Of a stretch of DNA of 64,000 nucleotides, positions 1,266-36,411 are shown piece by piece. The notes under the pieces were generated by a model that saw only the letters and a list, made by a program, of their open reading frames with translations, searched no databases and was not told the DNA's origin. Position numbers and translations under genes: made by a program. Each line of letters opens with the position of its first letter. The first letter of the stretch is position 1. The DNA is from Desulfuromonadales bacterium (lineage in GTDB: Bacteria > Desulfobacterota > Desulfuromonadia > Desulfuromonadales > BM103), in assembly GCA_030145205.1 (NCBI GenBank), contig JAQYVZ010000005.1, forward strand, positions 1-64,000. The letters are read 5' to 3'.

Positions 1266-1299
1266 GACCTCAGGGCGCACAGGTTTCACGCTCGCCGGA

Positions 1300-2250: not shown

Positions 2251-2382
2251 AGACATAGCGTTTTACTCAGTTACATCGCCCTTGCGGCAACGTGATTCGT
2301 CTTGTGAACACCCTGGAGTCTGTATATCATAGCTCAGCCTGCGACGCGATTTTTTTAACCTTTTCATGCATAGGGGTTTCTC

Positions 2383-3861: not shown

Positions 3862-3886
3862 GGCCGGCCTGAGCTTCGATTGATTC

Positions 3887-3915
3887 AAGGCGGGGAGGCA
3901 ACTCCCCGCCTTTCG
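3887..3915 (+). terminator. Intrinsic terminator of nhaD
   Basis: An 11-bp GC-rich stem (AAGGCGGGGAG/CTCCCCGCCTT) with a GCAA loop is followed by TTTCGTTATTTT. It ends only about a dozen bases before the hemW start codon, so hemW must either start on a very short leader or depend on readthrough. Confidence 0.88.
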
Positions 3916-3926
3916 TTATTTTGACT

Positions 3927-5060: not shown

Positions 5061-5142
5061 GTCAGCTTCCCGGTGTCGCAACACGCCGAAAAACACCTTT
5101 TTCCCCTTGTAAATTCCTGTCAATAAATCGTTTCTGCCGCCC

Positions 5143-5171
5143 TTGACAAAGGGGTAGGCCGTTGTTATGTT
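5143..5171 (+). promoter_or_regulatory. Sigma70 promoter of the hrcA-grpE-dnaK-dnaJ operon
   Basis: TTGACA (5143-5148), 17-base spacer, TATGTT (5166-5171). The predicted start of transcription falls on the CIRCE element immediately downstream, the classic arrangement for HrcA repression. Confidence 0.85.
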
Positions 5172-5181
5172 GATTTCGCCG

Positions 5182-5208
5182 TTAGCACTCAGACCCTCAG
5201 AGTGCTAA
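5182..5208. promoter_or_regulatory. CIRCE operator (HrcA binding site)
   Basis: Perfect inverted repeat TTAGCACTC-N9-GAGTGCTAA, with spacer AGACCCTCA. This is the canonical CIRCE sequence bound by HrcA. It sits about ten bases after the -10 box, so HrcA would block the operon that encodes it; autoregulation is established for the family. Confidence 0.98.
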
Positions 5209-5222
5209 CCCCTTAGAAGCGG

Positions 5223-5249
5223 GCCGGGTTACCCGGCTTTCAGTTTTTT
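5223..5249 (+). terminator. Terminator-like hairpin in the hrcA leader
   Basis: GCCGGG-TTA-CCCGGC (5223-5237) is followed by TTTCAGTTTTTT. It lies between CIRCE and the hrcA start, within the leader of its own operon, so it may act as an attenuator. The stem is short (6 bp) but all G/C. No gene upstream on this strand needs termination here other than hemW. Confidence 0.5.
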
Positions 5250-5263
5250 GTGCGGAGCACTTC

Positions 5264-12197: not shown

Positions 12198-12504
12198 AAA
12201 AACCTGTTGCCTGGCACGCGACACAACATGTAATTTTCTGCAGGGCAATTTAGCCTAACCTCTCGATATCACGTAAGAATCTCGCCTTCGATGTGCAGCT
12301 TAATCCACCGGGGCGACCTCGTTGATTATACTCACCTGACTTGCAAATACATGCATTTCAGGGAGTACTTGTACGTGGCTTTGCCGGATTTGACCGGCGG
12401 CGTGTGTCTTTTTTTACCCTTAATATAAAACTTAATTGATCTGGTTCTAACTGGGAGGTGCGTCAATGTTGCGCAAGTATGGACAAAACCGTAAGGAGGA
12501 TTCA

Positions 12505-15500: not shown

Positions 15501-18500
15501 GTACATCGCCGGCAACCTGGCCCCCGTTACCATCGAAGGGGCAACCACCATCTACAACAGCGGCGGCAGCGGCCTGTTCGTTGCCGGCAACCAGGACGCG
15601 GTCAGCTTCGGCAACAGCCTTGACGTCGACGACAGCGGCATGATGGGCGTCATCGTGACCGGCAACACCGGCGCATTCACAGTAGAAGGTCCGACGACGG
15701 TTGATAACAGCGGTCTGGTCGGTGTGTACATTACTGGCAACGGCTACAACGCCGTCACCTTCAACGACACTTTGGACGTCGCAAATAGTGTTTCAGACGG
15801 TGTCCTGATCGGTGGCAACACCGGTTCCGTTACGGTTGCCGGCGCCACCACCATTTACAACAGTGGCGGCAGCGGTCTCTATGTTGACAGCAACCAGCAG
15901 GCGGTCAGCTTCAACGACACCCTGGAAATCGATGACAGCGTTGTTTATGGCATGGCGGTCACCAATAACGACGGTGACGTCACCGTCGCAGATGCAATCA
16001 ACGTCGACAACAGTGGCAACCACGGCATCCTGCTGAGCATGAACGACGGTGAATTCTCCGCCGGCGACACGACCGTAACCAATACCGGCGGCGCCGGCAT
16101 TCGGGTCGACACCAACTACTGCAGCGCCACTTTTGGCGACATTTACGTTGAAGATACCGGCAACCAGGGGATCTACATCAGCGCCACGACCGGCGACTTC
16201 ACTGCTCCGACGACAACCGTCTACAACAGTGCAGCCGGATACGCCGGGGTTGAGGTCGGTGAAACCCAGGCGGCGATCGATTTCGGTATCGTCGACATCC
16301 TGACCGACGAGCAAGAATCGACAGGTCTGTTGACCTACAACATGGCCACCTTGAACATTGACGGCGGCACCATCGTGGCGAACGACGCCACGGCAATCGC
16401 CATGTACAACACCACGGTCGCGCCCGGCAGCGTCATCCTGTCGAGCGCAACCTCGAACAGTGCCGATGCCGAAGGTATCATCATGTATGATGTCGACGGC
16501 GGTCCGGTGCAGATCGGCTCGGTGATCGTCACCGACAGCGGCACCGAAGGCGTCGCCATCTACAATTCGGACTCGGATGTTGAGTTGACTTCGGTCAACG
16601 TCACCACCACCGGCGGAACAGGCGTCTTGCTGAACAGCAACACTGGCGCCTACAATTCAACCACGATCAATGTCACCGATGCGGGCCTTGCCGGCGTCAC
16701 CGTTTATAATACGGCTGGCGGTGTTGATCTCGGTCAGGTGACCGTCACCAACACCGGCTTAACGGGTAGCGGCACGAGCTACGGCGTCTGGATTGCCGAG
16801 AATGACGGCACCGTTGCCGCTGGCGACACCACCATCTACAACAGTGTTGATGCCGGCGTCTACGTGGACACCAACAACGCAGCGGTCGCCTTTGGCGGCG
16901 ACCTGTCGGTTTACAACAGCGGTGCGATCGGCGTGCGGATTCTGGATAACGCCGACGCAGTTTCTGTCGCCGGCGCCACCACCATTTACAACAGCGCCGA
17001 CCACGGCATGATCGTGCGCAATAACGCCGGTCCGGTCTCGTTCTACAATGCCGTAAGCGTCACCGACACGGGCGACGGTATCGGTCCGTTTGAAGACGGC
17101 ATTCGCATTTCTCAGAATGGCGGCCCGATTACTTTCTACAACTCCGTCCACATTGATGACAGCATTGGCAGCGGCCTGGACATCAGCGGCAACGCCAACA
17201 CTGTGACCATCGCCGGACCCACAACGATCTATAACAGTGGCGGAATCGGCCTCTTCGCCGAGAACAACCAGGGTAGCGTGGTCCTCGAGGATACTCTTGA
17301 AATCAGGAACAGCCTCCACGGCATGGTCTTGTATCGTAACGATGGTCCTGTCACTGTGGATGGTGCAATCGATATCTACAACAGCGCCTCGGTTGGTTTT
17401 GCGGCCGACAGCAATACAGCGCCCGTCACTTTCAACGACACATTGAATGTCGATCGCAGCGGCGACATCGGTATGTACGTCGACAACAACAGCGGGCCAG
17501 TCTCCTTCTACAACACAGTCACCGTCGACAACAGCGGCGACGGTGCCCTCTTATTCCCGTTGGCTGAGGAGAACGGCATCCAGGTCAGCAACAATAGCGG
17601 GGCCGTCACCTTCTATAATGCTGTAAGTGTCGACAACACCGAAGAGGACGGTCTGTTTGTCTTCAGAAACAGCGGGGCCGTTGCCTTCAACGACACGATC
17701 GCTATCGACAATAGTGGCAGTGATGGCATGCGCCTGGTCCGGAACGACGGACCGATCACCATTGAGGGCGCCACCACTATTTATAACAGTACGGACATCG
17801 GGCTGGGCATCCGCAACAACACTAATGCGATCACCTTCAACGATGATGTTACCGTCAGAAATACTGAGCTGAACGACGGCATCCAGATTGCCAACAACAG
17901 CGGCCCGGTCGACGTCAACGGCACGGTCAGCGTCTACAATGCTGGTCTGGTCGGCGTTGAAGTCCGGACCTCTGATGGCAACGTAACCTTCGACGACCTG
18001 GTCGTGAAGGAAACCGACGCACAAGGTGTCTTGCTGGACACCAACAACGGCGACTTCGTTGTCAACAACACCACCACGGTCTACAACAGCGCGGCCGGCT
18101 ATGCCGCCGTCGAGGTTGGCGAAACGACCGGCACCGTTGATCTGGGCACGGTCGACATCAGCACGGTGGCTCCCGAAGCAACCGGCCTGCTGACCTACAA
18201 CGTGGCAGCCCTGACGATCGATGGCGGCACTATCGCGGTGACCGACGCCACAGCCATCGACATGTATAACACCACCGTGCTGGGCGGTGTCACCCTGACC
18301 AGCGCCACGTCGGACGGTGCGGCTGCAGAAGGTATCGTCCTTGACGATGTTGACGGCGGCCCGGTCTCCATCGACACAGTCACAGTCACCAACAGCGGCA
18401 CGGAAGGCGTTGCCATTTACAACACGGCGTCTGCGGTCGAGATCACCGACCTTGACGTCACCACCGCTGGCGGCCACGGCCTCCTGCTCGACGGCAACAC

Positions 18501-21500
18501 CGGCAGCTACAACTCCGCCACCACCGACATCGTCGGCGTGGGCGGCAACGGCATCATGGTCGTCGACAACACCATGACGGCCGACTTCGGCGTCACCACC
18601 GTCACAGACATGGACGGTACGCCGAGCAACGGCGTGGTGATTAACAACAGCACCGGCACCTACACCTTCGATGGTCTGGATATCACCACCTACGACGGCT
18701 CCGGCCTGGTGGTTGACAACAGTGGCGTCGTGGAAGTGTTCGGCAGCGATAATGACATCCTCGCCTACGGCGGCAGCTCCGCCGGCGGTGCGGCTCTGGA
18801 TATTTACAACTCGGCGGTTGACCTGACCTTCGACACCCTGTCGTCCTACAACAGTGCTGTAGAAGGTGTGAGCATTGACAGTACCAGCGGCTCACTGACG
18901 GTCACCGGTGCCACCACGGTTCACAACAGCGCTAGCATCGGCGTCGCCATTTACAACAGCCCGGGCCTCACCTCAACGGTGGATGTCGATCTGAATACCG
19001 TGACGATCGACGGTGCTGAAGGAACCGCCGGCATGTTCCTGTACGGGAATGACGGTAGCTTTGTTGCCGACGCCACCACCATTAGCAACAGCGCGGGCTT
19101 AGGGTTGGCAATCGTAGGTAACTCAGGAAGCGTGACCTTCCTTGACACCGTAGACGTTACAGAGAGCGGCAGTTACGGTGTCGGCATTGCCGGCAACACC
19201 GGCGACGTTGCCATTTACAATACCGTCGCCATCGCCGATAGCGGTATGGACGGCTTCATCGCCCTTGGGAATGATGGCGACATCACCCTCTACAACGCCC
19301 TGACAGTCTCCGGCAGCGTTTATAACGGGGTCCATCTGACCATGAACGATGGTGAGTTCAGCGCCGGCGATACCACCATCACCGACAGCGGCACCAACGG
19401 ACTGCTGATCGACACCAACTACTGCAGCGCCACTTTTGGCAACCTCGTGGTACAGGATACCGGCAACCGTGGGATCTACATCATCGACACCACGGGCGAT
19501 TTCACCGCCCCGACCACGACGGTCTACAACAGCGCGGCCGGCTATGCCGCCGTAGAGATCGGCGAGACCCAGGCCGCGATCGACCTCGGCATCGTCGACA
19601 TTCAGACCGACAAGACCGAAGCAACCGGTCTGTTGACCTACAACATGGCAACCCTGAACATCGACGGCGGCACCATCGTGACGACCGATGCCACGGCTGT
19701 CGACATGTACAACACCACGATCTTCCCCGGCAGCGTGACTCTGTACAACGTCACTTCGATCGGCGCTGACAACGAAGGCATCGTCCTCGAGGATGTTGAC
19801 GGCGGCTCGTTCACAGTCGGCCAGGCAATCATCACCAATACCGGCACCGATGGCATTGCCATTTACAACACGACTTCGGCAGTCGAGATCACCGACGTTG
19901 ACGTCACCACCGCCGGCGGGCACGGCCTCCTGCTCGACGGCAACACAACAACCTACAACTCCGCGACCACCGATATCGTCGGTGTGGGCGGCGACGGCAT
20001 CATGATCGTCGACAACACCATGACAGCCGACTTCGGCATCACCAACGTCACCGATATGGACGGCACGCCGAGCGACGGCGTGGTGGTCTATAACAGCGCC
20101 GGCACTTATACCTTCGACGCTCTGAACGTGACCACCTACGACGGCTCCGGCCTGGTGGCTTACAACAGCGGTGTCGTGGAAGTGTTCGGCAGCGACAACG
20201 ACATCCTCGCTTACGGTGGCAGCTCCTCCGGCGGCGCGGCTCTGGATATTTACAACTCTGCGGTCGATTTGACCTTCGACACGCTCTCCTCTTACAACAG
20301 CGCCATTGACGGTGTGGTGCTCGACAGCGCCAGCGGCTCGCTGACGGTAACCGGCGCAACGATTGTCAACAACAGTGCCGGTATAGGCGTCGCCATCTAC
20401 AACAGCCCAGGCTTCACGTCGACAGTGGATGTTGACCTCAATACGGTCAATATTGACAATACTGAGGGCCCTGTTGCTATGTACCTGTCAGGCAATGAAG
20501 GGAGCTTCGCTGCTGATGCCACTACAATTGACAACAGCTTGGGCGATGGTCTGTATGTTCACGAAAACTACAACAGCGTAACCTTCAACGAAACCCTGAC
20601 CGTTTCCAACAGCGGCGCCATGACTGGTAGCGTTGTGATTGCCTCAAACAACGATACGGTTACGGTGGAAGGGGCAACGAACATCTACAACAGCAGCGGC
20701 ATGGTGGGCCTACTGGTTATGGGCAATGAGGCCGATGTCATCTTCAATGACCTTGTGGACGTTGAGCAGACCGCAGGTATAGGCCTTTATGTCTTCGACA
20801 ATGGCTACAATGCGGTGACCTTTAACGACACCGTAGATGTTACCGACAGTGGTACGGGTGGCCTCTATATCACAGCGAACGACGGCGCCGTCACCGTTGC
20901 CGGCGCAACCACCATATACAACAGTGGGGCCGTTGGTTTGGCTATTACTAACAACACAGACGCGGTGACCTTCCTCGACACGGTAAGCGTGACGGAAAGC
21001 GACCAAGTCGGGATCGGCGTCGGCTCCAACTCTGGCGATGTCACGATTTACAACACTGTCGAAGTGACCGACAGCGGCATAGATGGCTTCTTCGTTATAA
21101 ACAATGATGGCGATGTCAGCCTGAACAAGGACCTGACGGTAACCGACAGTCTTTACAACGGTGTCCATCTGAGCGTGAACAATGGAGAATTCAGCGTGGC
21201 CGGAGCAACATCCATCTACAACAGCGGTACGACCGGCCTGCTGATCGACACCAACTACAATAGCGCCACCTTCGCCAGTCTCGAGGTCGGCGACACCGGC
21301 AGCCAGGGAATCTACATCACCGATACCACGGGTGATGTCACCTCCGGCAGCACCACGGTCTATAACGGCGCGGCCAATTTCGCTGCGGTTGAGATCGACA
21401 CCACCCTCGCCGCCATCGATCTCGGCAGCGTGGATATTACCACTACCGCCTACAATGCGATCGGCCTGCTCACCAACGAGGTCGACAACCTCACCATTCG

Positions 21501-24405
21501 CGGCGGCAGCATCAGCACCCAGAACGCTACAGCGATCGATATGTACAACACCGTGATCGGCGTAGACGGCATCACCCTGGATAGCGTCAGTGCTCGGGAA
21601 GCAGTCAACCCGGATGGCTCCGGCGTGATCCTCGAAGGGGTTTCCGGCGGCGACTTCGTGGCCACCAACGTGACCATCTACAACACCACATGGGGCGGCT
21701 TCGAGATGATCAACACCTCGGCCAATGTCGCCATCCTCGGCACTCTTGACGTTGACCTTGCCGGCACGGAAGGTCTGCTGATCGAAGAATCCTCGGGTGA
21801 CTTTACAGCTGATACAACCTTGATCACCCGCACCGGTGGCTCAGGTGTTGTGGTCTACAACAGCTCTGGAACGGTTGATTTGGGTGCGAACCTGGTGATC
21901 AATGAAACAGGTAATCATGGCATCGCCTTGTACAATTCAGCAGATTTCGCCCTGACGGGCGGAACCATTGACAACACGACAAACTCCGGCGTCTACGTTG
22001 TGGACACCAGCCTTTCCCTGGATGGCACACAGATCGGCGTCAGTGGTCCGATTGGTGCCGCTGGTGTTGCCGTTTCATCGGTCGACGCAGATGACATCAG
22101 TGTTGCACTCGATAACCTGACACTTTCCAATATCGGCACAACCGGTATTCTCCTCGACGGTTCGGCGGCAGGCAGCGGCACGCTGTATGTCACCAGCTTC
22201 GACAGCAATACGGTGACTGATGCAGGCTGGAAAGGCGTTGAGATCAATGCTGCGACGTTTGATGCTGATCCTCTCACCGCGGGCATTCAATCTGTCGTTG
22301 GCGGCACCACTACGATCGGCGACTCCGGGGATACCACGCAGATCAACCTTGCCGGCATGGTTCTTTACAACGTTGCCGGCTCCATTGGCTTTGACGAGCT
22401 GAATATTTACAACGATGGTGGCACCGGTCTCTACATCCGTGATGCTGGCGGCAAGACCGGTGATTTCGCTTTCTCGACGGCTGACGGCGAGGTCATTACC
22501 ACCAACGGAACTGCGATCGACATTGACCCGGTGGCACTTGATATGACTCTGTCCAACGTATCGAGCAGTGATGCAGGCAGCGCCGGCATCATCATGGACA
22601 CGGTCTCCGGCACGGTCAACATCGGTACCGTGGATATTTACAATAGCGGAACCGTAGGTGTGGCGATCAGCAACTCGACAGCTGACGTCTCGATCGGCAG
22701 TTTGGCCATCGATCGAACCGGCACAGAAGGCCTGCTGCTCGACAGCAATGACGGCAGCTTCACGGTCACCGGTGAAACGACCATCGACAACACCACCGGG
22801 GCCGGGGTAGCAGTCTACAACTCGGCAAGCAACGGCAGTGTCAGCTTCGCTGGCAATGTCACCATAAACGACAGCGCTGCGGAAGGAATTGCGCTGGTTG
22901 ACAATGCTGGCAATTTCGAGATCCTCGGCACGACAACCGTCGATAACGCCAGCGCCGCGAGTGTTGCGATCTACAACACTGTGGGGAATGAGTACATCGG
23001 TGATGTCGATCTCGGCATCGTCAATATTACGGATCGTCAGGCCACCGGCCTGTATATCTTCGGCACCAATGCCGCGATCAATGTCAACGACATCTCCATC
23101 GACGGCAATGATCCCACGGCCGGGATCTCCATTGAAGACACCGGCGCACTTGGCAGTGTGAGTATCACCAGCGCTTCTGTTTCCAACAGTGGTGCCGAAG
23201 GGATTGCCCTTTATGATAATGAGGGCGACGTGAGTGTTCTGGGCGGAACCATCAGCGCTGCCTCCGGAACCGCTTTCCTCGTGGACGGCGGCTCATCAGC
23301 AGTGGTTTACAATGGTTCCATTGTAAACAATTCGGTTGGTTACTCGGTCGAGATTGCCAATGTGACCGGAGGCTCGGTCAGCCTGGATGGTGACATCATC
23401 GACACGGGTCAGGGGATTTCCATTCATGACAACAGCGGTGGTGACATCAACTTCACCGGAACCACGCTCTCTCTGACCCCGGTGGTGCCGACCACAACGC
23501 CACTGAATGTTGTTGATAACAGTGGCAGCGTCATCACCTTCGACAATGACACCTTTACCCTGGTGTCCTCACTTGCCACAGCCCTGAATGCGACAGGTGG
23601 CGGCACACTGAACATTCTTGGCCCCGATAACGAGATTATCGCGCAAACCGGCCAAGCGGTGAATATCAGTGATATGGAGATTGATATTACCTTGAACACG
23701 ATTTTCTCGACTTCATCGTTGAGCGGAGTCGGTGTCTCCATTTACAATACCGCTGCCGGCAGTTCCTTTACCGTCCTTGGCGATGGCGCGATCCCGTCAC
23801 AGATTCTGGGCAGCCTTGGTGATGGCATCGTGATCGAAGACTCTGAAGGCACTTTCGTCTTCAACGATGTTGCGATTACCACGCCTATGTACAATGGTGT
23901 GGTTCTGACCAACAACGACGCCGATATCACCTTCAACGACCTGACGGTGATCGGATCGGCAACAAGTTCCGCTGGAGTCGCAGCAACGAACTCCAGCGTC
24001 ACGCTCAATAGCGCAACTCTGAGCAACACCTCATTCGCAGGTGTTTATGCAGAGGCGGATGACGGTGGAATTTACAATGTGGCGGTGCTTGATAGCACGA
24101 TCGGCACACCGATGGGTGGCATTATCGTCGGTTCGTACAACAGCAGCACCATCAATAGCGTGATCCAAGGGAACACCATCAGTTCGACAATTGATGATGT
24201 GGTCCTGCTCGGCGATGCTGATCTCAACCTCGGTGCATACCCAGCGACCCTGGTGGGCTATGGCTACAAACCGGAACCTTACGATGCGACGAGCAACGCA
24301 GAGCTCTTCAATGTGCTCTCAACCGAGAATACTTTGAGTGGGACAGTCTACAACTCCAGCACCCTGAACGTTGACTTGTACAATGCCGCCAGCCTGGGGT
24401 TCTGA
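12505..24405 (+). CDS. Giant inverse autotransporter with beta-helix passenger, about 3970 residues
   Basis: Outer-membrane adhesin-like protein of the inverse autotransporter (intimin/invasin-type) group. After a signal peptide (hydrophobic MVVFLLIFGLILLPVPM, cleavage near TASAA) comes the barrel, about 12640-13390: VDLTGKLGNERSLGDADLFI, GNYGLGFRKMLDEWIVGGYG and repeated strand pairs. A linker near 13480 (DDGAGGSGTVEDPFGTLNDA) leads into about 3500 residues of beta-helix. That passenger is made of 25-residue coils such as TGSVTVAGATTIYNSGGSGL plus five residues; two coil types alternate (VTVxGATTIYNSG and VSFNDTLDVDDS). No C-terminal lectin or Ig domain is seen; the protein ends SLGF. The start at 12505 has a perfect TAAGGAGGA five bases away; an in-frame ATG at 12466, also with a good GGGAGG, would add 13 residues. 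The gene has its own promoter and terminator. Adhesion is inferred from architecture. Confidence 0.88.
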   Translation: MINGNGKQLRRLLKELPVLAKDMVVFLLIFGLILLPVPMTASAAPMKKWGPHVDLTGKLGNERSLGDADLFIPVLQGPDSLFFLDLRFQRDDNDVKEGNYGLGFRKMLDEWIVGGYGFYDVRDTQYDNTFQQWTLGVEALSENYDARLNVYFADEDEEEIGGLAGVDRFEYAGNYLLYGGSYETSMSGVDAEIGGKLPGLAYPEIRGYVGGYYFDTDGTNEVSGPKGRLEVRFPDLFGWDGSLFEVGGEIRHDSVRDTDYFFTARLRIPFGSGTISQPVSSLTPLEKRMTERVMRDPDIVTVRVGSNTTQPLTLGEEPIDITHVNDDGAGGSGTVEDPFGTLNDAAGATTEIVLIHADSALDGDGYAMADDQRLLGESDEVDHLIETDQFGVITLPRVTEGTEVPVISNAEVGITAGNNTEISGLIVDAGGYNTGILLEDLTGPVDINRVDLISGATPLAVYNSSSSVVMDDVSITDGLYTNLYVSGGSADLTITNSALLQTAGTGGTLMDVDGGHTGTITLADSTSLTSEEGATWKGLNFYNADGTYNIQGPVTYLGDDNGIMVQSDSEGTIVFSGPVTIDNAGEFGINMSDSPGTLAFTGDAPLTVDNAAGDGIYVNNSGALIVQGAGNSVAATGGPALNVLDSATDMTFDSLASTNSDESGVLLYNVAGVGIDGNALTVTGNTVVMGATVNGIDVIESRTGSAVTFNGVTIGDSGVSGIYLEANAGSTTVNGPATIYNSSTGSGLEVVGNSGAVRFNDSLEITDSAQYGALIVSNSGPVAAGSSTTIGNSTLDGMYIAGNSAPVSAGATTIYNSGAFGLFAAGNLESVSINGLLDVDDSTLGGIMVSGNPGAFTVTGPTTVDNSGLAGVFVVGNGYNSVAFNSTLDVSNSGSDGVLIGSNTGSVTVAGATSIYNSAGSGLYIADNEQAVSFNDQLDIEDSSIYGALVAGNTGPVTVGGATTIQNSSVFGAYVVANEESVSFNSSLDITDTELVDGMYIAGNLAPVTIEGATTIYNSGGSGLFVAGNQDAVSFGNSLDVDDSGMMGVIVTGNTGAFTVEGPTTVDNSGLVGVYITGNGYNAVTFNDTLDVANSVSDGVLIGGNTGSVTVAGATTIYNSGGSGLYVDSNQQAVSFNDTLEIDDSVVYGMAVTNNDGDVTVADAINVDNSGNHGILLSMNDGEFSAGDTTVTNTGGAGIRVDTNYCSATFGDIYVEDTGNQGIYISATTGDFTAPTTTVYNSAAGYAGVEVGETQAAIDFGIVDILTDEQESTGLLTYNMATLNIDGGTIVANDATAIAMYNTTVAPGSVILSSATSNSADAEGIIMYDVDGGPVQIGSVIVTDSGTEGVAIYNSDSDVELTSVNVTTTGGTGVLLNSNTGAYNSTTINVTDAGLAGVTVYNTAGGVDLGQVTVTNTGLTGSGTSYGVWIAENDGTVAAGDTTIYNSVDAGVYVDTNNAAVAFGGDLSVYNSGAIGVRILDNADAVSVAGATTIYNSADHGMIVRNNAGPVSFYNAVSVTDTGDGIGPFEDGIRISQNGGPITFYNSVHIDDSIGSGLDISGNANTVTIAGPTTIYNSGGIGLFAENNQGSVVLEDTLEIRNSLHGMVLYRNDGPVTVDGAIDIYNSASVGFAADSNTAPVTFNDTLNVDRSGDIGMYVDNNSGPVSFYNTVTVDNSGDGALLFPLAEENGIQVSNNSGAVTFYNAVSVDNTEEDGLFVFRNSGAVAFNDTIAIDNSGSDGMRLVRNDGPITIEGATTIYNSTDIGLGIRNNTNAITFNDDVTVRNTELNDGIQIANNSGPVDVNGTVSVYNAGLVGVEVRTSDGNVTFDDLVVKETDAQGVLLDTNNGDFVVNNTTTVYNSAAGYAAVEVGETTGTVDLGTVDISTVAPEATGLLTYNVAALTIDGGTIAVTDATAIDMYNTTVLGGVTLTSATSDGAAAEGIVLDDVDGGPVSIDTVTVTNSGTEGVAIYNTASAVEITDLDVTTAGGHGLLLDGNTGSYNSATTDIVGVGGNGIMVVDNTMTADFGVTTVTDMDGTPSNGVVINNSTGTYTFDGLDITTYDGSGLVVDNSGVVEVFGSDNDILAYGGSSAGGAALDIYNSAVDLTFDTLSSYNSAVEGVSIDSTSGSLTVTGATTVHNSASIGVAIYNSPGLTSTVDVDLNTVTIDGAEGTAGMFLYGNDGSFVADATTISNSAGLGLAIVGNSGSVTFLDTVDVTESGSYGVGIAGNTGDVAIYNTVAIADSGMDGFIALGNDGDITLYNALTVSGSVYNGVHLTMNDGEFSAGDTTITDSGTNGLLIDTNYCSATFGNLVVQDTGNRGIYIIDTTGDFTAPTTTVYNSAAGYAAVEIGETQAAIDLGIVDIQTDKTEATGLLTYNMATLNIDGGTIVTTDATAVDMYNTTIFPGSVTLYNVTSIGADNEGIVLEDVDGGSFTVGQAIITNTGTDGIAIYNTTSAVEITDVDVTTAGGHGLLLDGNTTTYNSATTDIVGVGGDGIMIVDNTMTADFGITNVTDMDGTPSDGVVVYNSAGTYTFDALNVTTYDGSGLVAYNSGVVEVFGSDNDILAYGGSSSGGAALDIYNSAVDLTFDTLSSYNSAIDGVVLDSASGSLTVTGATIVNNSAGIGVAIYNSPGFTSTVDVDLNTVNIDNTEGPVAMYLSGNEGSFAADATTIDNSLGDGLYVHENYNSVTFNETLTVSNSGAMTGSVVIASNNDTVTVEGATNIYNSSGMVGLLVMGNEADVIFNDLVDVEQTAGIGLYVFDNGYNAVTFNDTVDVTDSGTGGLYITANDGAVTVAGATTIYNSGAVGLAITNNTDAVTFLDTVSVTESDQVGIGVGSNSGDVTIYNTVEVTDSGIDGFFVINNDGDVSLNKDLTVTDSLYNGVHLSVNNGEFSVAGATSIYNSGTTGLLIDTNYNSATFASLEVGDTGSQGIYITDTTGDVTSGSTTVYNGAANFAAVEIDTTLAAIDLGSVDITTTAYNAIGLLTNEVDNLTIRGGSISTQNATAIDMYNTVIGVDGITLDSVSAREAVNPDGSGVILEGVSGGDFVATNVTIYNTTWGGFEMINTSANVAILGTLDVDLAGTEGLLIEESSGDFTADTTLITRTGGSGVVVYNSSGTVDLGANLVINETGNHGIALYNSADFALTGGTIDNTTNSGVYVVDTSLSLDGTQIGVSGPIGAAGVAVSSVDADDISVALDNLTLSNIGTTGILLDGSAAGSGTLYVTSFDSNTVTDAGWKGVEINAATFDADPLTAGIQSVVGGTTTIGDSGDTTQINLAGMVLYNVAGSIGFDELNIYNDGGTGLYIRDAGGKTGDFAFSTADGEVITTNGTAIDIDPVALDMTLSNVSSSDAGSAGIIMDTVSGTVNIGTVDIYNSGTVGVAISNSTADVSIGSLAIDRTGTEGLLLDSNDGSFTVTGETTIDNTTGAGVAVYNSASNGSVSFAGNVTINDSAAEGIALVDNAGNFEILGTTTVDNASAASVAIYNTVGNEYIGDVDLGIVNITDRQATGLYIFGTNAAINVNDISIDGNDPTAGISIEDTGALGSVSITSASVSNSGAEGIALYDNEGDVSVLGGTISAASGTAFLVDGGSSAVVYNGSIVNNSVGYSVEIANVTGGSVSLDGDIIDTGQGISIHDNSGGDINFTGTTLSLTPVVPTTTPLNVVDNSGSVITFDNDTFTLVSSLATALNATGGGTLNILGPDNEIIAQTGQAVNISDMEIDITLNTIFSTSSLSGVGVSIYNTAAGSSFTVLGDGAIPSQILGSLGDGIVIEDSEGTFVFNDVAITTPMYNGVVLTNNDADITFNDLTVIGSATSSAGVAATNSSVTLNSATLSNTSFAGVYAEADDGGIYNVAVLDSTIGTPMGGIIVGSYNSSTINSVIQGNTISSTIDDVVLLGDADLNLGAYPATLVGYGYKPEPYDATSNAELFNVLSTENTLSGTVYNSSTLNVDLYNAASLGF
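18081..19020 (+). repeat. Long internal duplication in the adhesin, copy 1
   Basis: This 0.94-kb segment is closely similar to 19524-20466. It begins TVYNSAAGYAAVEV and ends STVDVDLNTVTID. Landmarks such as VVEVFGSDNDILAYGGSS occur at the same relative place in both copies, shifted by 1443 then 1446 bases (one extra codon in copy 2). Earlier and later partial copies of its first section start near 16221 and 21360. Confidence 0.85.
19524..20466 (+). repeat. Long internal duplication in the adhesin, copy 2
   Basis: Second copy of 18081-19020. Differences include DNS in copy 1 (LVVDNSGVVEV) becoming YNS in copy 2 (LVAYNSGVVEV), which shows the Asp-to-Tyr switch at the coil corner directly. Long near-identical tracts make loss or gain of a 1.44-kb in-frame block by recombination plausible. 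Confidence 0.85.
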
Positions 24406-26620: not shown

Positions 26621-28300
<1,680 letters not shown>

Positions 28301-28313
28301 ACGACAGAGGGAC

Positions 28314-30179
28314 ATGTCACGACATAACCTGCAGATTCTCATTTTTGACAATGGCATGGAGCTTTGCCACGACCTGGGCAGCTGGCTGAAAAAAGACGGG
28401 CATGCTGTAACCTGCCTTGCCGCCAAGGACTTCTGGACGACAGATTTTTCAGAGGTCCAGCCAAACTTGATCATTTACGAGCTCCTTACAGGCTCCGGCG
28501 ACGAATTGTCGCTTTACCGACGCGTCAGGTCACGCAAAGCCTTTCGGCAGTTGCCGGTCATTGTCGTCAGTGAAAACAGCGGCCTCGAATACGAGATGCT
28601 TGACATCTTAGATTTCCAGACCCGCCCTTTCGATCGAGCGCGATTTCTCAACACCATCAAACGCATCGACCTGGAGGTGGGAGCAAAACAACTATGCCCC
28701 TTGACGCCAGCGCAGCTCCAGCCCTTTAAAGCATTCCTGCTCACGCACAGTGGGTTGCACTTCAGCCAACATAACCTGCGTATGCTCGAGCGCGGTTTGT
28801 TGCGGCGCATGCAGACTTTACAAATCACCCGCCCTGATGACTATTTTGGCTATCTCGAATCGACCGCCAATAATTATGATGAGCTCAACAAACTTCTGGG
28901 ATTGCTTACCGTTGGCGAAACCTGCTTCTTTCGATATCGGGCCCACCGTGAGGCCCTTCTGCATTTTGTCCTCCCCCAAATTATCACCCACAATCAGAAA
29001 CAGAAGAAGCTGAGGATCTGGTCTGCAGGGTGTTCTACAGGAGAAGAGCCTTACTCTCTGGCCATTCTGTTGCAGGAACACTTTCCGGAACTCGCCGATT
29101 GGGATGTTCAGATTATTGCCACAGACATTAACAAACGTGCCTTGCGTCAAGCCAGAGAAGGTGTTTACGGACCACGCTCGCTACGTCTGGTCGAAGACTC
29201 TTTGCGTCGGCGTTATTTTCGGCAGGCTGGAGGCTACTACCAGCTGCAGCCACGCATTCGCAAGCTGGTGCACTTTAGCTACCTCAACCTGCAGACAGTA
29301 GACTCTTTTCCTGCCCCATCGGACGCTACAGACAATCTTGATCTGCTGCTCTGTCGAAATGTCCTGATCTATTTCGAGCTTGGCACGATTCGCCGCATTG
29401 TCGAACAATTCAGTGCGAATTTGAAACCATCCGGATTTCTGTTCATGGGACATGCGGAAACCATGCAGAACGTTTCCGACCGATTTAAACGTCTTGATCA
29501 CCATGGTTCATTTTTTTACCAGCTGAAGCCTCCCGAACCAGCTCTGGTCGAGGCCTTGGCACAGAGAAAACCTCAAGCGGCAGCAGTCTCGCCTCCCAAG
29601 GCCCCTGCAACAACCAGGTCGGCGAAAGCAACGGCACCGGCCTCGCCCGGCCTCAACAAAGTTCAAGACCAAGCAGACCGACTCTACACGGCCGCCATGA
29701 GTGCCTTTGAGCATGAATTTTTCGAGAAGGCGAACCAACTTTTCGACGAGGCGTTAAACAGCCACCCAAAACACCCCCCCTCTCTGGTTGGCAAAGGTCT
29801 CCTGATGGCCAATCAAGGAGACTACGCTGCGGCCAACAAATATTGCGCCCAGGCAATCGCCCAGAATGACCTCCTGCCGGAAGCTTACATGCTGCGGGGT
29901 TTGGTTCTGGATATGCAGGGTCACCTGGAGCGCGCATTGGTCGAGTTTCAAAAGGTTCTGTGGCTGGACGGACACTTCATCATGGCACATTACCTGATGG
30001 CCAAGATACATGGCCGCCTTGACCGACCCGCCCAGGCATCCCGATCTCTGCGCAATACCATTTCCAGTCTGGAGCGACTGCCCGGTCAAGAGATCATTCC
30101 ATTCTCGGGAGGTCTTTCCCGAAGCGTTTTCCTGGAAATTGCGCATCGCGAATTTGCCGAAAAAGCGACCAACCCTTGA
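28314..30179 (+). CDS. cheR: CheR-type methyltransferase with pseudo-receiver and TPR domains
   Basis: A 621-residue, three-part chemoreceptor methyltransferase. Residues 1-125 fold like a receiver (ILIFDNGMELCHDLGSWL...) but the phospho-acceptor position reads LIIYELL, without Asp, so it is a pseudo-receiver. Residues 130-400 are CheR: GETCFFR, the SAM-binding WSAGCSTGEEPYSLAILL, and LLCRNVLIYF. The C terminus (about 440-600) has TPR repeats (AMSAFEHEFFEKANQLFDEA). CheR-TPR fusions are known from FrzF-like proteins. The ATG at 28314, after AGAGGG, is the supported start; the frame is open further upstream within glnS. It opens the chemosensory cluster. It would methylate the MCP at 30978. 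Confidence 0.92.
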   Translation: MSRHNLQILIFDNGMELCHDLGSWLKKDGHAVTCLAAKDFWTTDFSEVQPNLIIYELLTGSGDELSLYRRVRSRKAFRQLPVIVVSENSGLEYEMLDILDFQTRPFDRARFLNTIKRIDLEVGAKQLCPLTPAQLQPFKAFLLTHSGLHFSQHNLRMLERGLLRRMQTLQITRPDDYFGYLESTANNYDELNKLLGLLTVGETCFFRYRAHREALLHFVLPQIITHNQKQKKLRIWSAGCSTGEEPYSLAILLQEHFPELADWDVQIIATDINKRALRQAREGVYGPRSLRLVEDSLRRRYFRQAGGYYQLQPRIRKLVHFSYLNLQTVDSFPAPSDATDNLDLLLCRNVLIYFELGTIRRIVEQFSANLKPSGFLFMGHAETMQNVSDRFKRLDHHGSFFYQLKPPEPALVEALAQRKPQAAAVSPPKAPATTRSAKATAPASPGLNKVQDQADRLYTAAMSAFEHEFFEKANQLFDEALNSHPKHPPSLVGKGLLMANQGDYAAANKYCAQAIAQNDLLPEAYMLRGLVLDMQGHLERALVEFQKVLWLDGHFIMAHYLMAKIHGRLDRPAQASRSLRNTISSLERLPGQEIIPFSGGLSRSVFLEIAHREFAEKATNP

Positions 30180-30300: not shown

Positions 30301-30358
30301 CTATGACAAGAGACAAGTGCATTCAATAAGAAGCTGTTAAATACGAGTGAAACCGTGT

Positions 30359-30925
30359 ATGAAAGATGCCTCCATGAGCCGCTCTACCAACTATGACTTC
30401 GACAAGGTTTTGCAGGAGATGCAAGCGGATTACTGGCACAACCTTGAGAAGTCAGAAGACGAAAGCACAACGTCTGGAGACGACTACCTGGTTGTCCTGT
30501 CCGGCCAAAAGTCCTTTGCCTTGAAGGCTGGCCTATGCAAAGAAATTCTCAAGCTGCCTCCGGTGGTGAAGGTTCCCCGCCTTCCCAGACATATACGAGG
30601 CATTTTCAACCTGCGGGGAGAAATTGTCGCCGTAACGGATGTCTCCGCACTGCTTGGCGGCGCTGCCACAGAAACCAAGCCACGCAGTCGGCTGGTTATC
30701 GTCGAGCATGGTCCGATGAAAACCGCTCTGCTCGTCGATGGAGTCGAAGGGCTGCGTCGAGTTGACGACGAACAGGTCGAGGCTCTTGCCGCAGGCACTG
30801 CGGCTGGAAAACGAGAGCTATTCAAAGGCAAGGTCATGGAGGAGCAAGGCCCCCTGGTTCTGCTTGATATGGAACGATTCCTGGCACAACCGGACCTTCT
30901 GGTCGATCAGCAAAGGGAAACATAG
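30359..30925 (+). CDS. cheW: CheW-like coupling protein
   Basis: Scaffold protein linking receptor and CheA, about 188 residues, longer than typical CheW because of a 40-residue charged N-terminal extension. The CheW fold is seen in [15 protein letters not shown], then [32 protein letters not shown], with the conserved G-x-x-N-L-R-G-x-x-x-P/A motif, and [10 protein letters not shown]. The start is uncertain: GTG 30347, ATG 30359 or ATG 30374; none has a strong ribosome site. MCP follows after 52 bases. Confidence 0.9.
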
Positions 30926-30977: not shown

Positions 30978-33239
30978 ATGTTCAAGCGGATCAACGTAAA
31001 GATCGTAGCGGCTTTGATTGCCGTACTAACAGTGATCATGGTTTTATCAACCTGGCTGATCGTCCAGCAGCGCGCCGACGTTTTGCGTAAGGAGCTACTG
31101 GTCAAAGCCAGCGCCCTCGCCAAGGTTGGTGCCAAAGCAATGGAGGGAATCCTCGAAGAAGCCACGGCGACGAAGCAATTTACGGTTGAGCAGCTGCTCG
31201 ATACCAACTACCAGGAGATTACAGAAGGCCCGCTGGCCAAGGCCGGTATTCCCAAATACAAAACCGCTTATGATCGTTATCTCGACATACGCATCAAAGC
31301 CTTTCAGGATACCTTTCTGTCCTCAGATGACATGGTCGTGTTTGCTGTTCTGGTTGACCGCAACGGGTACCTGCCTACCCACAACAGCAAATACTCGAAA
31401 CCTTTGACCGGCAATGCCGAGCAAGACAAGGTCGGCAACCGGACCAAGCGGATTTTCAACGACAAGGTCGGTCTCGCCGCAGCCCGTTACGACAACGCAG
31501 ACGGCAAAGGCTATCTGCAGCAGGTGTATCAGCGCGACACCGGCGAAACCATGTGGGATGTCTCTGCACCAGTGTTCGTGCGTGACCAGCATTGGGGAGG
31601 GTTCCGGATCGGATTTTCTATGCAGCAAACCGATGCGGCAATTATCGACCTGCGCAACGAAATTGTCTTCCATATGGGGCTAGTGCTGCTGTTTGCGTCG
31701 ATCACCTGTTTCTTCGTGGTTGCTCGCTTTATGCAGCCACTGAAATCTTTGACCCGAGCCGCCGAGCGGATTACCGAGGGTAGCCTGGAAGAACAGATCC
31801 AGGTTCAGTCGGACGATGAGATCGGCCAATTGGGCAAAGCGTTCAACAAGATGACCCAAGTGATCGTCAAGAACCTCCAGGGGGAGATCGATAAAAGCAA
31901 TCGGATGGTGGTAAGTGTCAAGGAGGCGATCCAACAGCTGTCAACCAGCGCAAATGAATTAATGGCCATTTCCGTTCAACAGGCCTCCGGCGCCACCCAG
32001 CAGGCGGCCGCAGTGCAGGAGGCCACGACAACATCGGAAGAGATCGCAGCAACGGCCCGGCAAGTCACGGAAAACTCAGCCAGAGTTGAAAGTCTGGCCG
32101 GCAACGCAGCAGGATCCAGCACTGAGGGCCAGGTTGCCGTAACCGACGCTGTCGAAGGCATGACGGTTCTGAAAGGGCAGGTCCAATCGATTGCCGAAGC
32201 GATGCTGGAATTAGGGGACAATTCGCAAAAAATCGGCGGAATCATCGACATCATCGACGAAATTTCCGACCAGACCAACCTGCTGTCCTTAAATGCTGCT
32301 ATCGAAGCTGCAGGCGCCGGAGAAGCCGGCAAACGGTTTTCCGTTGTCGCTAACGAAGTCCGTCGTTTGGCCGACAGAACTGCTGACGCAACGGATCAGG
32401 TCAAGGTGTTGATCGAGCACATTCAACAGGCGACAAACAGTACGATCATGTTGACCGAGGAAGGGGCCAAGGGAGTGGATTCTGCCAGCGCCCTGGTGAC
32501 AAACATCTCGGAAGCACTTCAGAAAATCCATGTAGCGGTGGATGAAACAACGATGGCTGCCAGTGAGATCAAGCTCATGACTCAGCAGCAGACAACCGCC
32601 AGTGAGCAGATGGCCGAAACGATCGTCGAGGTTCGTGATGTCGCCAACCAGGTAGCAACCAGTTCTCAGGAGACAACCCAGTCAATCACCGAGCTGACAG
32701 CGCTGGCAGACCGTCTCCAGGACATGGTGAATGAGGATCTGCGCTCACAAGGGGAAGCTGCGGCAGCATCCGGTGCTCGGGAAATGGAAAATCTTCTGAA
32801 TCGCGCCCTGGGAAAAGGGGACCTCTCCAGAGATGATCTGTTCGATGAAAATTACCAACCGATCCCGAACACGAATCCACAGAAGTATCACACAAAATAT
32901 GATGCTTACCTTGATAAAGCCATCCAGACATACCAGGATAGTCTTCTGGAGAACAATATGGTTGCCTTCGCAGTCCTGGTTGACCGCAACGGGTATCTGC
33001 CGACTCACAACACCAAGTTCAGTCAGCCACTGACGGGCGACTACGACACAGACCTGCAGAACAATCGAACCAAGCGGATTTTTAATCATGATGTCGGCAT
33101 CAAGGCCGCCCAGAACCAAAATGGGCCGTTGGTTCAACCTTATGAGCGTGATACCGGTGAAAAAATGCTTGATATCAGTATGCCGGTGTTCGTAAAAGGC
33201 AAACACTGGGGTGCGTTCCGAATTGGCTACTGGTTGTAA
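30978..33239 (+). CDS. Methyl-accepting chemotaxis protein with duplicated sensor domain
   Basis: A 753-residue chemoreceptor. Residues 8-30 form TM1, about 35-220 a periplasmic Cache-like sensor, about 224-250 TM2, then HAMP ([15 protein letters not shown]...[13 protein letters not shown]) and a methyl-accepting domain with the tip [27 protein letters not shown]. Unusually, after the signalling domain a second copy of the sensor module follows (about 602-753). [17 protein letters not shown] of the first copy appears again as [17 protein letters not shown], and [11 protein letters not shown] again as [11 protein letters not shown]. No membrane segment separates it from the signalling domain, so the second copy should be cytoplasmic. 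GGAGG lies 6 bases before the ATG at 30978. Neighbours are cheW and cheA. The ligand is unknown. Confidence 0.93.
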
Positions 33240-33272: not shown

Positions 33273-35372
33273 ATGAACAAAAACAAGTACGTTGAAATAT
33301 TCATCCGTGAAGCGGAAGAACACCTGCAGGGGTTACGGCAGGGGTTGCTTGCTCTAGAAAAAGAAGGTTTCACGGAGGAGAGGCTCCACGACCTGTTGAG
33401 ACGTGCCCACACGCTCAAAGGGTCAGCCAAAATGGTCGACCTGCTTGAACTGTCCGGGGTTGCGCATCGGCTTGAAGATCAGCTCAAGGCTCTGCAGAAT
33501 GGCGAGAAAGAGCTGTCCTCCGATTTGATTGACGTTCTGCTGGTGGCCAGTGATGCCATCGAGGCATTAATCGCCCAGGCCAACGCTGGTGGCAGCATCA
33601 GTGTCAACGTTGATCCTGTGGTCGAGGCCCTTGAGACAGGCAGCGTTGCAGAAGACTCCCCCGGAAAACAAGACCAGGTCGCTTACCAGGGAACAGAGCG
33701 ACGCAAATCCGTGCGCGCCAGCGTTGAACGGCTGGATCAGCTGGTTAACCGGGCTGGCGAAATTCTTCTGCACCATCAGATCCTGGACCAGCGCGGACAG
33801 CAATTAAAACAGCTACTGAAAGGCTTTGACCAACTTTTGGGCCGTTTCGTTAACGCTAAAGACTATCAGAACATGACCTCGTTACGGGATGAGTTCCAGA
33901 GCCTCCTTGAGGCTTTCGAACAGGACCGCGTACAACTTGGCTACCAGACGGAAGATGTCTACCAGCGCGCCATGGAGCTGCGGTTGCTGCCGCTGGCAAC
34001 CATTACCGATGATTTCGAACATTCCCTACGTGGCCTGGCGCGCAATCTAAAAAAAGAGATTCGCTTCACCGTACAAGGACAAGAGGTAGAACTCGACCGC
34101 AACATGCTGGATGCCGTCAAGCCAATTTTACTGCATATCCTCAACAATGCCGTGGACCATGCAATTGAAGACCCGGAAACCCGGGTTCGGCTCGGCAAGC
34201 CCAAAGCCGGTCAGATTCATCTGGACGCCCAGTATGAAGGCAGTTTTGTGCAAATTTCAGTGCGCGATGATGGGCAGGGTATGGACCCTGAAAAGATCCG
34301 GGCCGTCGCCGTGAAGCGTAATCTGCTTTCCGCAGATGAGGCCGCAGCCCTCTCTGATGAAGCGACCCTGTACCTGGTTCTCGAACCAGGCTTCACAACC
34401 CGGGAGTTTATTACCGATGTGTCCGGTCGAGGCGTTGGCCTTGATGTGGTCAAAGCCAATCTGGAGCAGGTCAAAGGGGATCTGGCGCTGCATTCGGTCG
34501 TCGGCGAGGGCACTGAGCTGGTTCTGCGGCTGCCTTTGAGTCTTGCCGTGTTTGCCGGACTCCTGTTTGCGTGTGGCGAAGAGTTTTATGTCCTGCCCCA
34601 ACACTATGTGACAGAAATCCTGCGGTTGACTCCTCACGACATCCACGAGGAAATGGATCGTGAGGTCGTCATCTACCGTGATCGAGCAATCCCCCTCCAC
34701 AGCCTTTCGCAGATCCTCGGAACCGAAAGTTCTGATCGAATTGGCAACCGGCTGACCGTTCTTATCCTGAAGTTTCGCGAACAGGAAATGGCCTTACTGG
34801 TCCAGAAAACCCTCGGCTTGCAGGATGTCGTCGTTAAAGACCTGGGGTGCCAGCTGAAGAGCCTGGATTTCTTCTCTGGTGCCACGATGATGACCAACGG
34901 TATCCCGGCGTTGATTCTTTCCACTGCCGACCTGTTCGCTGCACGCCAGACGCAAGAAGGTCTCCAGCTGCGGGAGAAGTTCGCCCGACAAGAAGCACAA
35001 CGGCGCAAGGGGCGCATTCTGGTCGTCGATGATTCAATTACGACCCGAACCATGGAAAAAAACATTCTTGAAACGCACGGCTACGAGGTGACCATCGCCA
35101 TTTCCGGCTTTGACGCTTTGGAGAAACTCGACAAAAGCCGGTTTGACTTGATGGTCAGCGATGTTGAAATGCCGGGCATGACCGGTTTTGAGTTGACCCG
35201 TCAGGTGCGACAACGGGAGGATACCACGGCAATGCCGGTTATTATTGTCACATCACTTGCCTCTGACGATCACCGTCGACAGGGGATCGAGGTTGGGGCT
35301 CAAGCTTATCTCGTCAAAGGAAACTTTGAACAGGGAGCCCTGCTGGAGACAGTCGAGACCCTGGTTTCCTGA
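33273..35372 (+). CDS. cheA: CheA histidine kinase fused to a receiver domain
   Basis: Hybrid chemotaxis kinase of 699 residues. Order: Hpt domain (phospho-His in LLRRAHTLKGSAKM, about residue 46), a linker/dimerisation region, HATPase (HILNNAVDHAIEDPETR and DDGQGMDPEKI, then GRGVGLDVVKANLEQ), a CheW-like domain (about 420-560), and a C-terminal receiver (GRILVVDDSITTRTMEKNIL, with phospho-Asp in MVSDVEMPGMTGF). A separate P2 CheY-binding domain is not evident. The CheA-receiver fusion is the FrzE layout, used in alternative or surface-motility pathways rather than simple flagellar taxis. It is followed 10 bases later by cheB. Confidence 0.94.
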   Translation: MNKNKYVEIFIREAEEHLQGLRQGLLALEKEGFTEERLHDLLRRAHTLKGSAKMVDLLELSGVAHRLEDQLKALQNGEKELSSDLIDVLLVASDAIEALIAQANAGGSISVNVDPVVEALETGSVAEDSPGKQDQVAYQGTERRKSVRASVERLDQLVNRAGEILLHHQILDQRGQQLKQLLKGFDQLLGRFVNAKDYQNMTSLRDEFQSLLEAFEQDRVQLGYQTEDVYQRAMELRLLPLATITDDFEHSLRGLARNLKKEIRFTVQGQEVELDRNMLDAVKPILLHILNNAVDHAIEDPETRVRLGKPKAGQIHLDAQYEGSFVQISVRDDGQGMDPEKIRAVAVKRNLLSADEAAALSDEATLYLVLEPGFTTREFITDVSGRGVGLDVVKANLEQVKGDLALHSVVGEGTELVLRLPLSLAVFAGLLFACGEEFYVLPQHYVTEILRLTPHDIHEEMDREVVIYRDRAIPLHSLSQILGTESSDRIGNRLTVLILKFREQEMALLVQKTLGLQDVVVKDLGCQLKSLDFFSGATMMTNGIPALILSTADLFAARQTQEGLQLREKFARQEAQRRKGRILVVDDSITTRTMEKNILETHGYEVTIAISGFDALEKLDKSRFDLMVSDVEMPGMTGFELTRQVRQREDTTAMPVIIVTSLASDDHRRQGIEVGAQAYLVKGNFEQGALLETVETLVS

Positions 35373-35382
35373 GCAGAAATTT

Positions 35383-36411
35383 ATGATCAATGTTCTGATT
35401 GCCGATGATTCCGAGTTGATGCGCACCGTTTTGCGTGACCTGTTGGCGCGTGATGACGAAATCCAAATTGTGGCCGAAGCCAGGGATGGGCAGACCGCTG
35501 TCGACCTGGTGAAACGACTGCAACCGGACCTGGTCATCATGGATGTTTTGATGCCGATCATGAACGGTCTGGATGCAACCTGCGAGATCATGGCGGACTG
35601 CCCCACCCCGATCTTGATCCTTTCAGCAAACACCGACAGCGGCGACAACCTCTGTGCTTTTTCGGCGATCCGGCTTGGCGCATTGGATGTCATGGAAAAA
35701 CCCGCAGGCCTTGTCACCGAAGCCTTTTCTGAGATTGCGGAGCAACTCATCCGGAAGGTCAAGAGCCTGTGTCGAATCAAGGTCATTCATCATTTTCGAA
35801 CATCTAAACGACCTGCAGCCGTCAACCTTATCACGACTGTTCATCCGCGTCGGCTTCTGGCAATCGGAGCTTCCACTGGTGGACCACAGGCGGTTCTGCA
35901 CCTGTTGCGGGAACTGCCGCAGCACCTTCCGGCCAGCGTGCTGCTGGTTCAGCATATCGCCAGAGGGTTTGCCTCGGGTTTTGCTGGCTGGCTGAACCGA
36001 GAAACTCCTTTGCGCGTGCAATTGGCCCGAGATGGTGACACTTTGCTGCCAGGGCGGGTTCTGGTTGCACCGAACGATCTTCACTTGGCGATTGTCGGGC
36101 AGAAGGTTGTTTTAACGGAAACCCCTCCTGTACATAATTGCCGCCCGGCAGTGGATGTGTTGTTTCAGAGCCTGGCTGATGACGGGCTGGCAAAAGACAC
36201 TGTGGCCCTGTTGTTGACCGGGATGGGACAGGATGGTGCCAAAGGGCTGGGACAATTACGTCGGAAGGGGGCACTGACACTCGCCCAGGATGAAGAATCC
36301 TCCGCCATCTTTGGAATGCCAAGAGTCGCCATCGACCAGGGGGCTGTCAGCCAGGTTGTTTCTCTTGCAGACCTTCCGGCGGTCGTCAAGGCCCAATTCG
36401 AGAAGCAATAA
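35383..36411 (+). CDS. cheB: Chemotaxis response regulator protein-glutamate methylesterase CheB
   Basis: Removes methyl groups from the receptor and so opposes CheR. It has 342 residues. The receiver is at 1-120 (NVLIADDSELMRTVLRDLL, phospho-Asp in LVIMDVLMPIMNG). The esterase domain starts near residue 160; its triad is Ser in IGASTGGPQA, His in LLVQHIARGF and Asp in TGMGQDGAKG. The ATG at 35383 gives the canonical CheB start; the ribosome site is weak, so coupling to cheA is likely. It closes the operon. Confidence 0.95.
   Translation: MINVLIADDSELMRTVLRDLLARDDEIQIVAEARDGQTAVDLVKRLQPDLVIMDVLMPIMNGLDATCEIMADCPTPILILSANTDSGDNLCAFSAIRLGALDVMEKPAGLVTEAFSEIAEQLIRKVKSLCRIKVIHHFRTSKRPAAVNLITTVHPRRLLAIGASTGGPQAVLHLLRELPQHLPASVLLVQHIARGFASGFAGWLNRETPLRVQLARDGDTLLPGRVLVAPNDLHLAIVGQKVVLTETPPVHNCRPAVDVLFQSLADDGLAKDTVALLLTGMGQDGAKGLGQLRRKGALTLAQDEESSAIFGMPRVAIDQGAVSQVVSLADLPAVVKAQFEKQ

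Follow-up and report, generated by a model that had tools for sequence, protein, structure and literature searches.

Why would one chemoreceptor carry sensor modules of the same family on both sides of the membrane, and where does the inner one come from? These questions are raised by a methyl-accepting chemoreceptor (MCP) encoded in a 64,000-nucleotide stretch of DNA from a Desulfuromonadales bacterium (positions 1 to 64,000 of contig JAQYVZ010000005.1, assembly GCA_030145205.1), hereinafter the window.

The receptor and its che operon

The receptor, of 753 amino acids, is encoded by a single open frame (30978..33239, on the forward strand like all window features given here), with a ggagg ribosome site 7 bases upstream of its ATG. 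From the N-terminus it displays a first transmembrane (TM) helix at about residues 9-28 (31002..31061; Kyte-Doolittle peak 2.62); a Cache-like module at residues 34-213 (31077..31616), delimited by module alignment and predicted to be periplasmic from its location between two TM segments; a second TM helix at about residues 229-248 (31662..31721; peak 2.38); a HAMP domain at residues 247-294 (31716..31859; PF00672, E 7.1e-14); an MCP signalling domain at residues 381-554 (32118..32639; PF00015, E 1.7e-36); and a second Cache-like module at residues 582-751 (32721..33230), predicted to be cytoplasmic and recognized by alignment, an AlphaFold2 model and comparison with Cache folds in the PDB. 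These two are termed the N and C modules below. The HAMP and signalling domains pass their curated cut-offs (52.3 bits vs 25 and 126.1 bits vs 34.6, respectively). TM segments were called where the 19-residue Kyte-Doolittle mean exceeds 1.6, a hydropathy threshold rather than a topology program; after residue 260 no membrane segment was found by this measure (highest 19-residue mean 0.87). Hydropathy hence bears out the claim of a first-pass annotation that no membrane segment separates the signalling domain from the C module, and the predicted topology places one module outside and one inside.

Local alignment of the two modules yields 88 identical residues of 170 (52%) and a BLOSUM62 score of 423, against a mean of 31.6 and a maximum of 56 in 500 shuffles. 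They are therefore related, and the shared runs seen in the first pass are readily located: NGYLPTHN at 129 and 671, NRTKRIFN at 154 and 696, RDTGE at 186 and 724, and HWG at 205 and 743. The modules had been placed from about residues 65 and 602; both are present, but the similarity starts at 34 and 582 and takes in the long first helix. Fifteen marker residues are identical in the two window modules: Y78/Y626, D99/D642, Y131/Y673, H135/H677, R155/R697, K157/K699, R158/R700, R186/R724, T188/T726, G189/G727, D194/D732, P198/P736, H205/H743, W206/W744 and R210/R748.

The gene lies between cheW (30347..30925; PF01584, E 1.3e-26) and a cheA with a C-terminal receiver domain (33273..35372; Hpt, HATPase_c, CheW and Response_reg), with a TPR-containing cheR (28218..30179; PF01739, E 5.9e-56) and cheB (35245..36411; PF01339, E 2.2e-58) nearby, the start codons of the latter two being unchecked. 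This gene neighbourhood suggests that the receptor may work with a che pathway. The operon cheR-cheW-MCP-cheA-cheB recurs in six further genomes (L003-L008), preceded by glnS and followed by cysS where the loci extend far enough; in each of them the slot between cheW and cheA is taken by a double receptor, i.e. one with both modules, and an assembly artefact is thereby excluded. In the window's own genome the MCP signalling domain gives 14 matches and flagellin two, while the module was found in this gene only, twice. A CheR with TPR repeats together with a CheA with a receiver domain also fits chemosensory systems of alternative function, so the output of this operon need not be flagellar. 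Upstream of the operon the window encodes a giant surface protein of 3979 residues (12466-24405) with an inverse autotransporter beta-domain (PF11924), a right-handed beta-helix (PF13229) and many YNSG/IYNS-like repeats.

Fold, family and distribution of the module

Pfam and NCBIfam scans recovered no model over its cut-off for the window modules and showed none for the module in ten other proteins scanned. In the full window receptor no Cache model rises over its curated cut-off, and the PocR sensory domain (PF10114) scores 18.5 bits against a cut-off of 23.9. Across 100 related modules (alignment A1, with twelve invariant columns), the lowest Pfam E-value for any family is 0.0018 (DUF4464); the best Cache model, sCache_3_2, matches 14 of the 100 weakly (best E 0.002) and scores the window C module at 13.5 bits, its cut-off being 28.4. 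Sequence searches with a single module recovered no solved structure, and a module profile gave only two amidase sequences (E 0.76-0.77).

The AlphaFold2 model of the C module (pLDDT 95.3) shows a predicted single Cache (PDC) fold with a long N-terminal helix (9-36 of the model), consistent with the Cache-like character ascribed to this region in the first pass. Foldseek retrieved three chains at E 0.001 or better with this model, all of WalK or CitA, the TM-scores by query length being below 0.5 among the matches listed. Re-comparison of Foldseek's list by VIA-align (50 PDB matches) gave Z-scores of 9.7-12.5 among the matches listed, led by WalK (Z 12.5, rmsd 2.7, 127 aligned residues), DcuS (11.7, 2.6, 119), CitA (11.6, 2.6, 119; and 11.2) and DctB (11.4, 2.8, 127). 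Since the Cache fold emerges from structure comparison and no Pfam or NCBIfam model in the scans exceeds its cut-off, the module looks like a single Cache domain of an unnamed family. Two more specific assignments were rejected. A ligand could not be taken over from DcuS, where the YSHP histidine lies near the equivalent of the PTHN histidine, because the hhalign probability of the module profile against DcuS (7%) is too weak; and a heme c sensor is incompatible with the lack of CXXCH, there being no cysteine in either window module.

The module was found in 214 of 277 genomes of the window's class (E 1e-10), 20 of 297 in a draw of its phylum (some genomes being shared with the class set) and 87 of 398 in a Pseudomonadota-centred draw (E 1e-8), with further occurrences in draws centred on Chloroflexota (9 of 201), Spirochaetota (25 of 149) and Bacillota (13 of 199). 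We classified 231 distinct module ORFs, taking best matches first and then hand-picked places, so that the counts do not describe a random sample; ORFs sharing their last 150 residues entered once, and end-cut ORFs were excluded for loci numbered L083 and upward, with no such tracking in L003-L082. The module precedes the MCP domain in 57, both precedes and follows it in 18 (19 with an L168 copy truncated at the edge of the fetched stretch) and only follows it in 66. Among those with no MCP match, a category that includes the histidine kinase of L222, it lies between two TM segments in 49 and is alone or anchored in 41. The 66 MCPs with only a C-terminal module come from four phyla: 37 have one or two close TM segments, seven have another inter-TM stretch of at least 60 residues, four are polytopic and 18 have no TM segment over the threshold, some of them being apparently soluble. 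Two of these 18 fall just under the threshold (L125 at 1.58, L147 at 1.57) and are probably membrane proteins, two others (L211, L221) start very close to the signalling domain and may be cut, and the 66 include a fragment of a broken double (L166). Within Pseudomonadota the module is C-terminal in 29 of 29 best-match loci (L124-L152) and in 12 of 12 chosen lower-scoring ORFs; those Bacillota loci that have an MCP domain carry it N-terminally. Judged by these predicted layouts, the internal version of the module is common in bacteria, and a module profile would annotate a sensor on MCPs where Pfam shows only the signalling domain.

Receptors with both modules are more restricted. At least 19 were found, all in one class (the window, L003-L009, L153, L155-L159, L164, L167, two in L168, and L169), and among the class genomes searched the layout occurs in seven family codes (f1, f5, f9, f14, f20, f23 and f24). 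Outside the class no two-module frame was found in the match tables of the Pseudomonadota, Chloroflexota, phylum, Spirochaetota and Bacillota draws at the places scored (at most nine per genome in the Pseudomonadota draw, for example, and 13 in the class, whose match table was also incomplete, so that second modules may be missed), split matches of a single Chloroflexota module being set aside. In L166 (1232-3600) a double is represented by two overlapping frames, either broken or a sequencing error, and its C module is very near that of L164. The second receptor of L168 has a stretch within its C module just over the TM threshold (1.66).

The module also appears in several other architectural contexts. 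An MCP of L206 (2941-5031) combines a periplasmic Mcp40H-20 sensor (CNACH) with a C-terminal module, i.e. a heme-type sensor outside and a Cache inside, and L205 has the same layout by hydropathy. In L216 (1078-3564) Pfam identifies a PilZ domain between the signalling domain and the C-terminal module; a PilZ-like stretch is seen by eye in L213 (1811-3556), where Pfam gave no match. The L222 protein (3187-5757) uses the module as the periplasmic sensor of a HAMP-PAS-PAS histidine kinase. Adjacent pairs of module genes in which no output domain was found occur among L037-L080 (e.g. L060:5878-7465 and L041:5878-7412), coding for an anchored or secreted protein of about 200 residues and a TM-module-TM protein of about 300 residues; in L060 the latter ends in a HAMP domain by Pfam, and in L041 a histidine kinase lies upstream. 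Spirochaetota-centred loci (L230-L235) encode TM-module-TM proteins of 249-264 residues without an MCP domain, that of L230 having zero Pfam matches.

Origin of the cytoplasmic module

The first-pass annotation took the C module for a second copy of the receptor's own sensor. This does not hold. In a tree of 62 hand-chosen modules, from which three long or broken rows, Pseudomonadota and some others were left out, 18 N modules, the window's among them, form a supported set (100/99), and eight C modules, again including the window's, form another (98/95), the other members being from related receptors. Making the window N and C modules one clade lowers the log-likelihood by 77.6 (AU p 5.5e-9), so that a sister relationship is rejected; a constraint uniting the N with the C modules across the seven operon doubles costs 51.4 log units (p 0.02). 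A single clade for 23 C modules of the class has an AU p of 0.43, and one origin for the class C modules is neither shown nor rejected. In a quick tree of 110 modules, 23 C modules, each from a Pseudomonadota-centred locus, make up a separate set (SH-aLRT 100) distinct from those of the class, and no supported set in that tree contains the window C module.

These results bear on the simplest explanation, namely a recent tandem duplication within the gene or an error of assembly. The identity of the two modules over more than half of their aligned residues would be compatible with such an event, as would the placement of the two modules of L009 as weakly supported sisters (89/45). Against it stand the AU test, the recurrence of the layout at six other loci of the operon and at additional loci, and the codons themselves: positions 1, 2 and 3 are identical in 105, 120 and only 69 of the 170 aligned codons, which argues for an old divergence rather than a fresh or assembly duplication. 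For the window protein we hence reject this explanation, which retains a negligible probability.

A second route to the double layout is a crossover of neighbouring MCP genes in tandem, of which one carried the outer module and the other the inner. Arrangements of the requisite kind do exist: at the operon place L010 carries a tandem pair of MCPs, a C module accompanied by sCache_3_3 being found on one and an N module on the other, and L168 has two doubles in tandem. Nevertheless, when the signalling region is divided into seven segments, the window sequence at no point switches between the two L010 genes, and a signalling-region tree (23 hand-chosen rows) places it with its operon relatives. 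A crossover inside the signalling domain thus finds no support in the seven segments, and we regard the crossover route in general as unlikely. The L168 pair (2-4522) lies directly before cheA.

The MCP at the same operon place in L011-L026 and L033 has an N module only. Since the N and C modules group separately and the signalling region follows the operon relatives, it is likely that an operon receptor of this N-module type gained its C module from a pool of C modules already in existence and not from its own sensor, addition being the direction that we infer from the trees.

Probable sensing in two compartments, and known chemoreceptors

Is the C module still a sensor? Over the 19 double receptors (L154 being the same gene as L009 and left out), all 15 marker residues are kept by the C copy in 18, by the N copy in 16 and by both in 15. 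For three close pairs dN/dS is 0.115, 0.074 and 0.102 in the C copy, 0.074, 0.072 and 0.196 in the N copy and 0.030, 0.028 and 0.062 in the signalling domain; most comparisons with the window protein itself were saturated and yielded no dS. By these ratios the C copy is under constraint comparable to that on the N copy, both being looser than the signalling domain. The retention of the markers, together with this constraint, favours a working sensor in both positions. It is in keeping with the first-pass suggestion that the two modules may sense the same kind of ligand, the 15 markers being the same in both. A cluster of His, Arg and Lys among the conserved residues would fit a small anionic metabolite and suggests such a ligand; the same residues may instead serve the fold.

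We consider it probable that the protein is a receptor for two compartments, with an internal sensor that signals in reverse along the C-terminal helix. The periplasmic module would read an outside ligand and pass the signal through the second TM helix to HAMP by the usual route, a periplasmic Cache having been argued to hand its signal from its C-terminal end to the membrane helix (PMC4822843, in extract). The cytoplasmic module of the same family appears to be joined without a linker to the end of the signalling hairpin, such that its first helix would prolong the C-terminal signalling helix; as nothing follows this module, it must act via that first helix. Being fused directly to the hairpin, it would transmit inside ligand occupancy backwards through its N-terminal helix to the membrane-proximal base of the signalling bundle, so that an inside ligand would act on this base from the other end and the outer and inner inputs would converge on one bundle for adaptation and kinase control. 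Ligand binding by both modules and the direction of signalling are what we infer from this arrangement. The junction is consistent with it: eight N-only relatives (A2) end about four residues past the signalling helix, whereas the doubles continue into the module. A model of residues 246-753 predicts a helix over 281-613, but it is weak (pLDDT 76, pTM 0.44, the hairpin turn not formed), so that helix continuity depends mainly on the sequence junction.

The C module might alternatively be a structural tail that has lost sensing, and that dimerizes or stabilizes the base of the bundle or docks CheR or CheB. It occupies the site at which some receptors carry a CheR-tethering pentapeptide (PMC2577667, in extract), and the window protein itself ends at GYWL without one. 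However, the His, Arg, Lys and Trp residues that suggest a pocket are equally conserved in the cytoplasmic and periplasmic copies, and their conservation extends to the C-terminal modules of Pseudomonadota, rendering a mere tail quite improbable.

A stronger competitor holds that the modules are paralogs with different ligands, the receptor integrating an outside cue with an unrelated, metabolic, inside cue. The separate ancestry of the N and C modules would agree with this, as would the N copies of L157, L167 and L169, which have altered marker residues where their C copies are unaltered. Moreover, the C module is joined elsewhere to quite different periplasmic sensors, such as sCache_3_3 (L010, L161), a Cache_2-type domain (L027) and Mcp40H-20 (L206), and it need not, therefore, match the outer sensor. 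The identity of all markers between the two modules of the window and of most doubles speaks against it, and we give this reading a substantial probability, if short of even. A bolder version of the two-compartment receptor, in which the two modules share one small anionic ligand and the receptor signals that its concentrations outside and inside differ or coincide, is put forward tentatively and with less confidence than the reading of differing ligands. If true, such a comparator would tell the cell whether a nutrient in its surroundings is actually being taken up. The double receptor offers a natural system for asking whether a chemoreceptor can compare one signal between outside and inside, and by what means a tail-end sensor on the signalling helix controls the kinase.

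The first-pass annotation knew of no standard MCP class with this layout. This is right insofar as no Pfam or NCBIfam model in the scans covers the module over its cut-off and open-licence papers yielded no description of the module, of a cytoplasmic Cache chemoreceptor or of the double layout (with nothing on the module in extracts of PMC8396549 and PMC11940527); but the C-terminal module is widespread in MCPs and the double layout spans several family codes. As the search was limited to open-licence papers, their silence proves little.

Among known systems, sensors of the sCache_3 type (CitA, DcuS) share the predicted fold class of the module (Z 11-12), but the sCache_3_2 and hhalign scores given above place it outside them by sequence; it is also longer than the DcuS chain (about 170 vs 133 residues) and occurs on both sides of the membrane. 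The sCache_heme sensors (DUF3365/Tll0287; GSU0582/GSU0935), some of them on Geobacter MCPs (PMC12889525, in extract), differ from the window modules in having CXXCH. Cache domains have been called the largest extracellular sensor superfamily in prokaryotes, and two families of the Cache clan, YkuI_C and Diacid_rec, principally intracellular; Diacid_rec has 30 entries in what is apparently the MCP column of a table, so an intracellular Cache on MCPs is not unheard of (PMC4822843, in extract). Neither family matched in the module scans, and, unlike them, the family described here occurs on either side and, in one receptor, on both. A solved precedent for a sensor at the cytoplasmic C terminus that acts on the signalling bundle is presented by soluble receptors like TlpD of Helicobacter pylori, with a CZB domain likewise at the end of the signalling helix (PMC12871147, in extract); this domain binds zinc, whereas the window receptor has a predicted Cache fold there and carries another module of that family in the periplasm. 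Bacillus subtilis McpB provides an example of one receptor sensing outside and inside, as is proposed here: most attractants act at its extracellular domain and ethanol between the helices of its cytoplasmic signalling domain, with no second sensor domain described in the extract (PMC7542364). The parts of the window receptor are thus of known kinds, MCP and Cache, and the intracellular Cache is already in print (YkuI_C and Diacid_rec; PMC4822843, in extract); what is new, as far as our searches show, is an unnamed Cache-like family on both sides of the membrane and a receptor with both at once.
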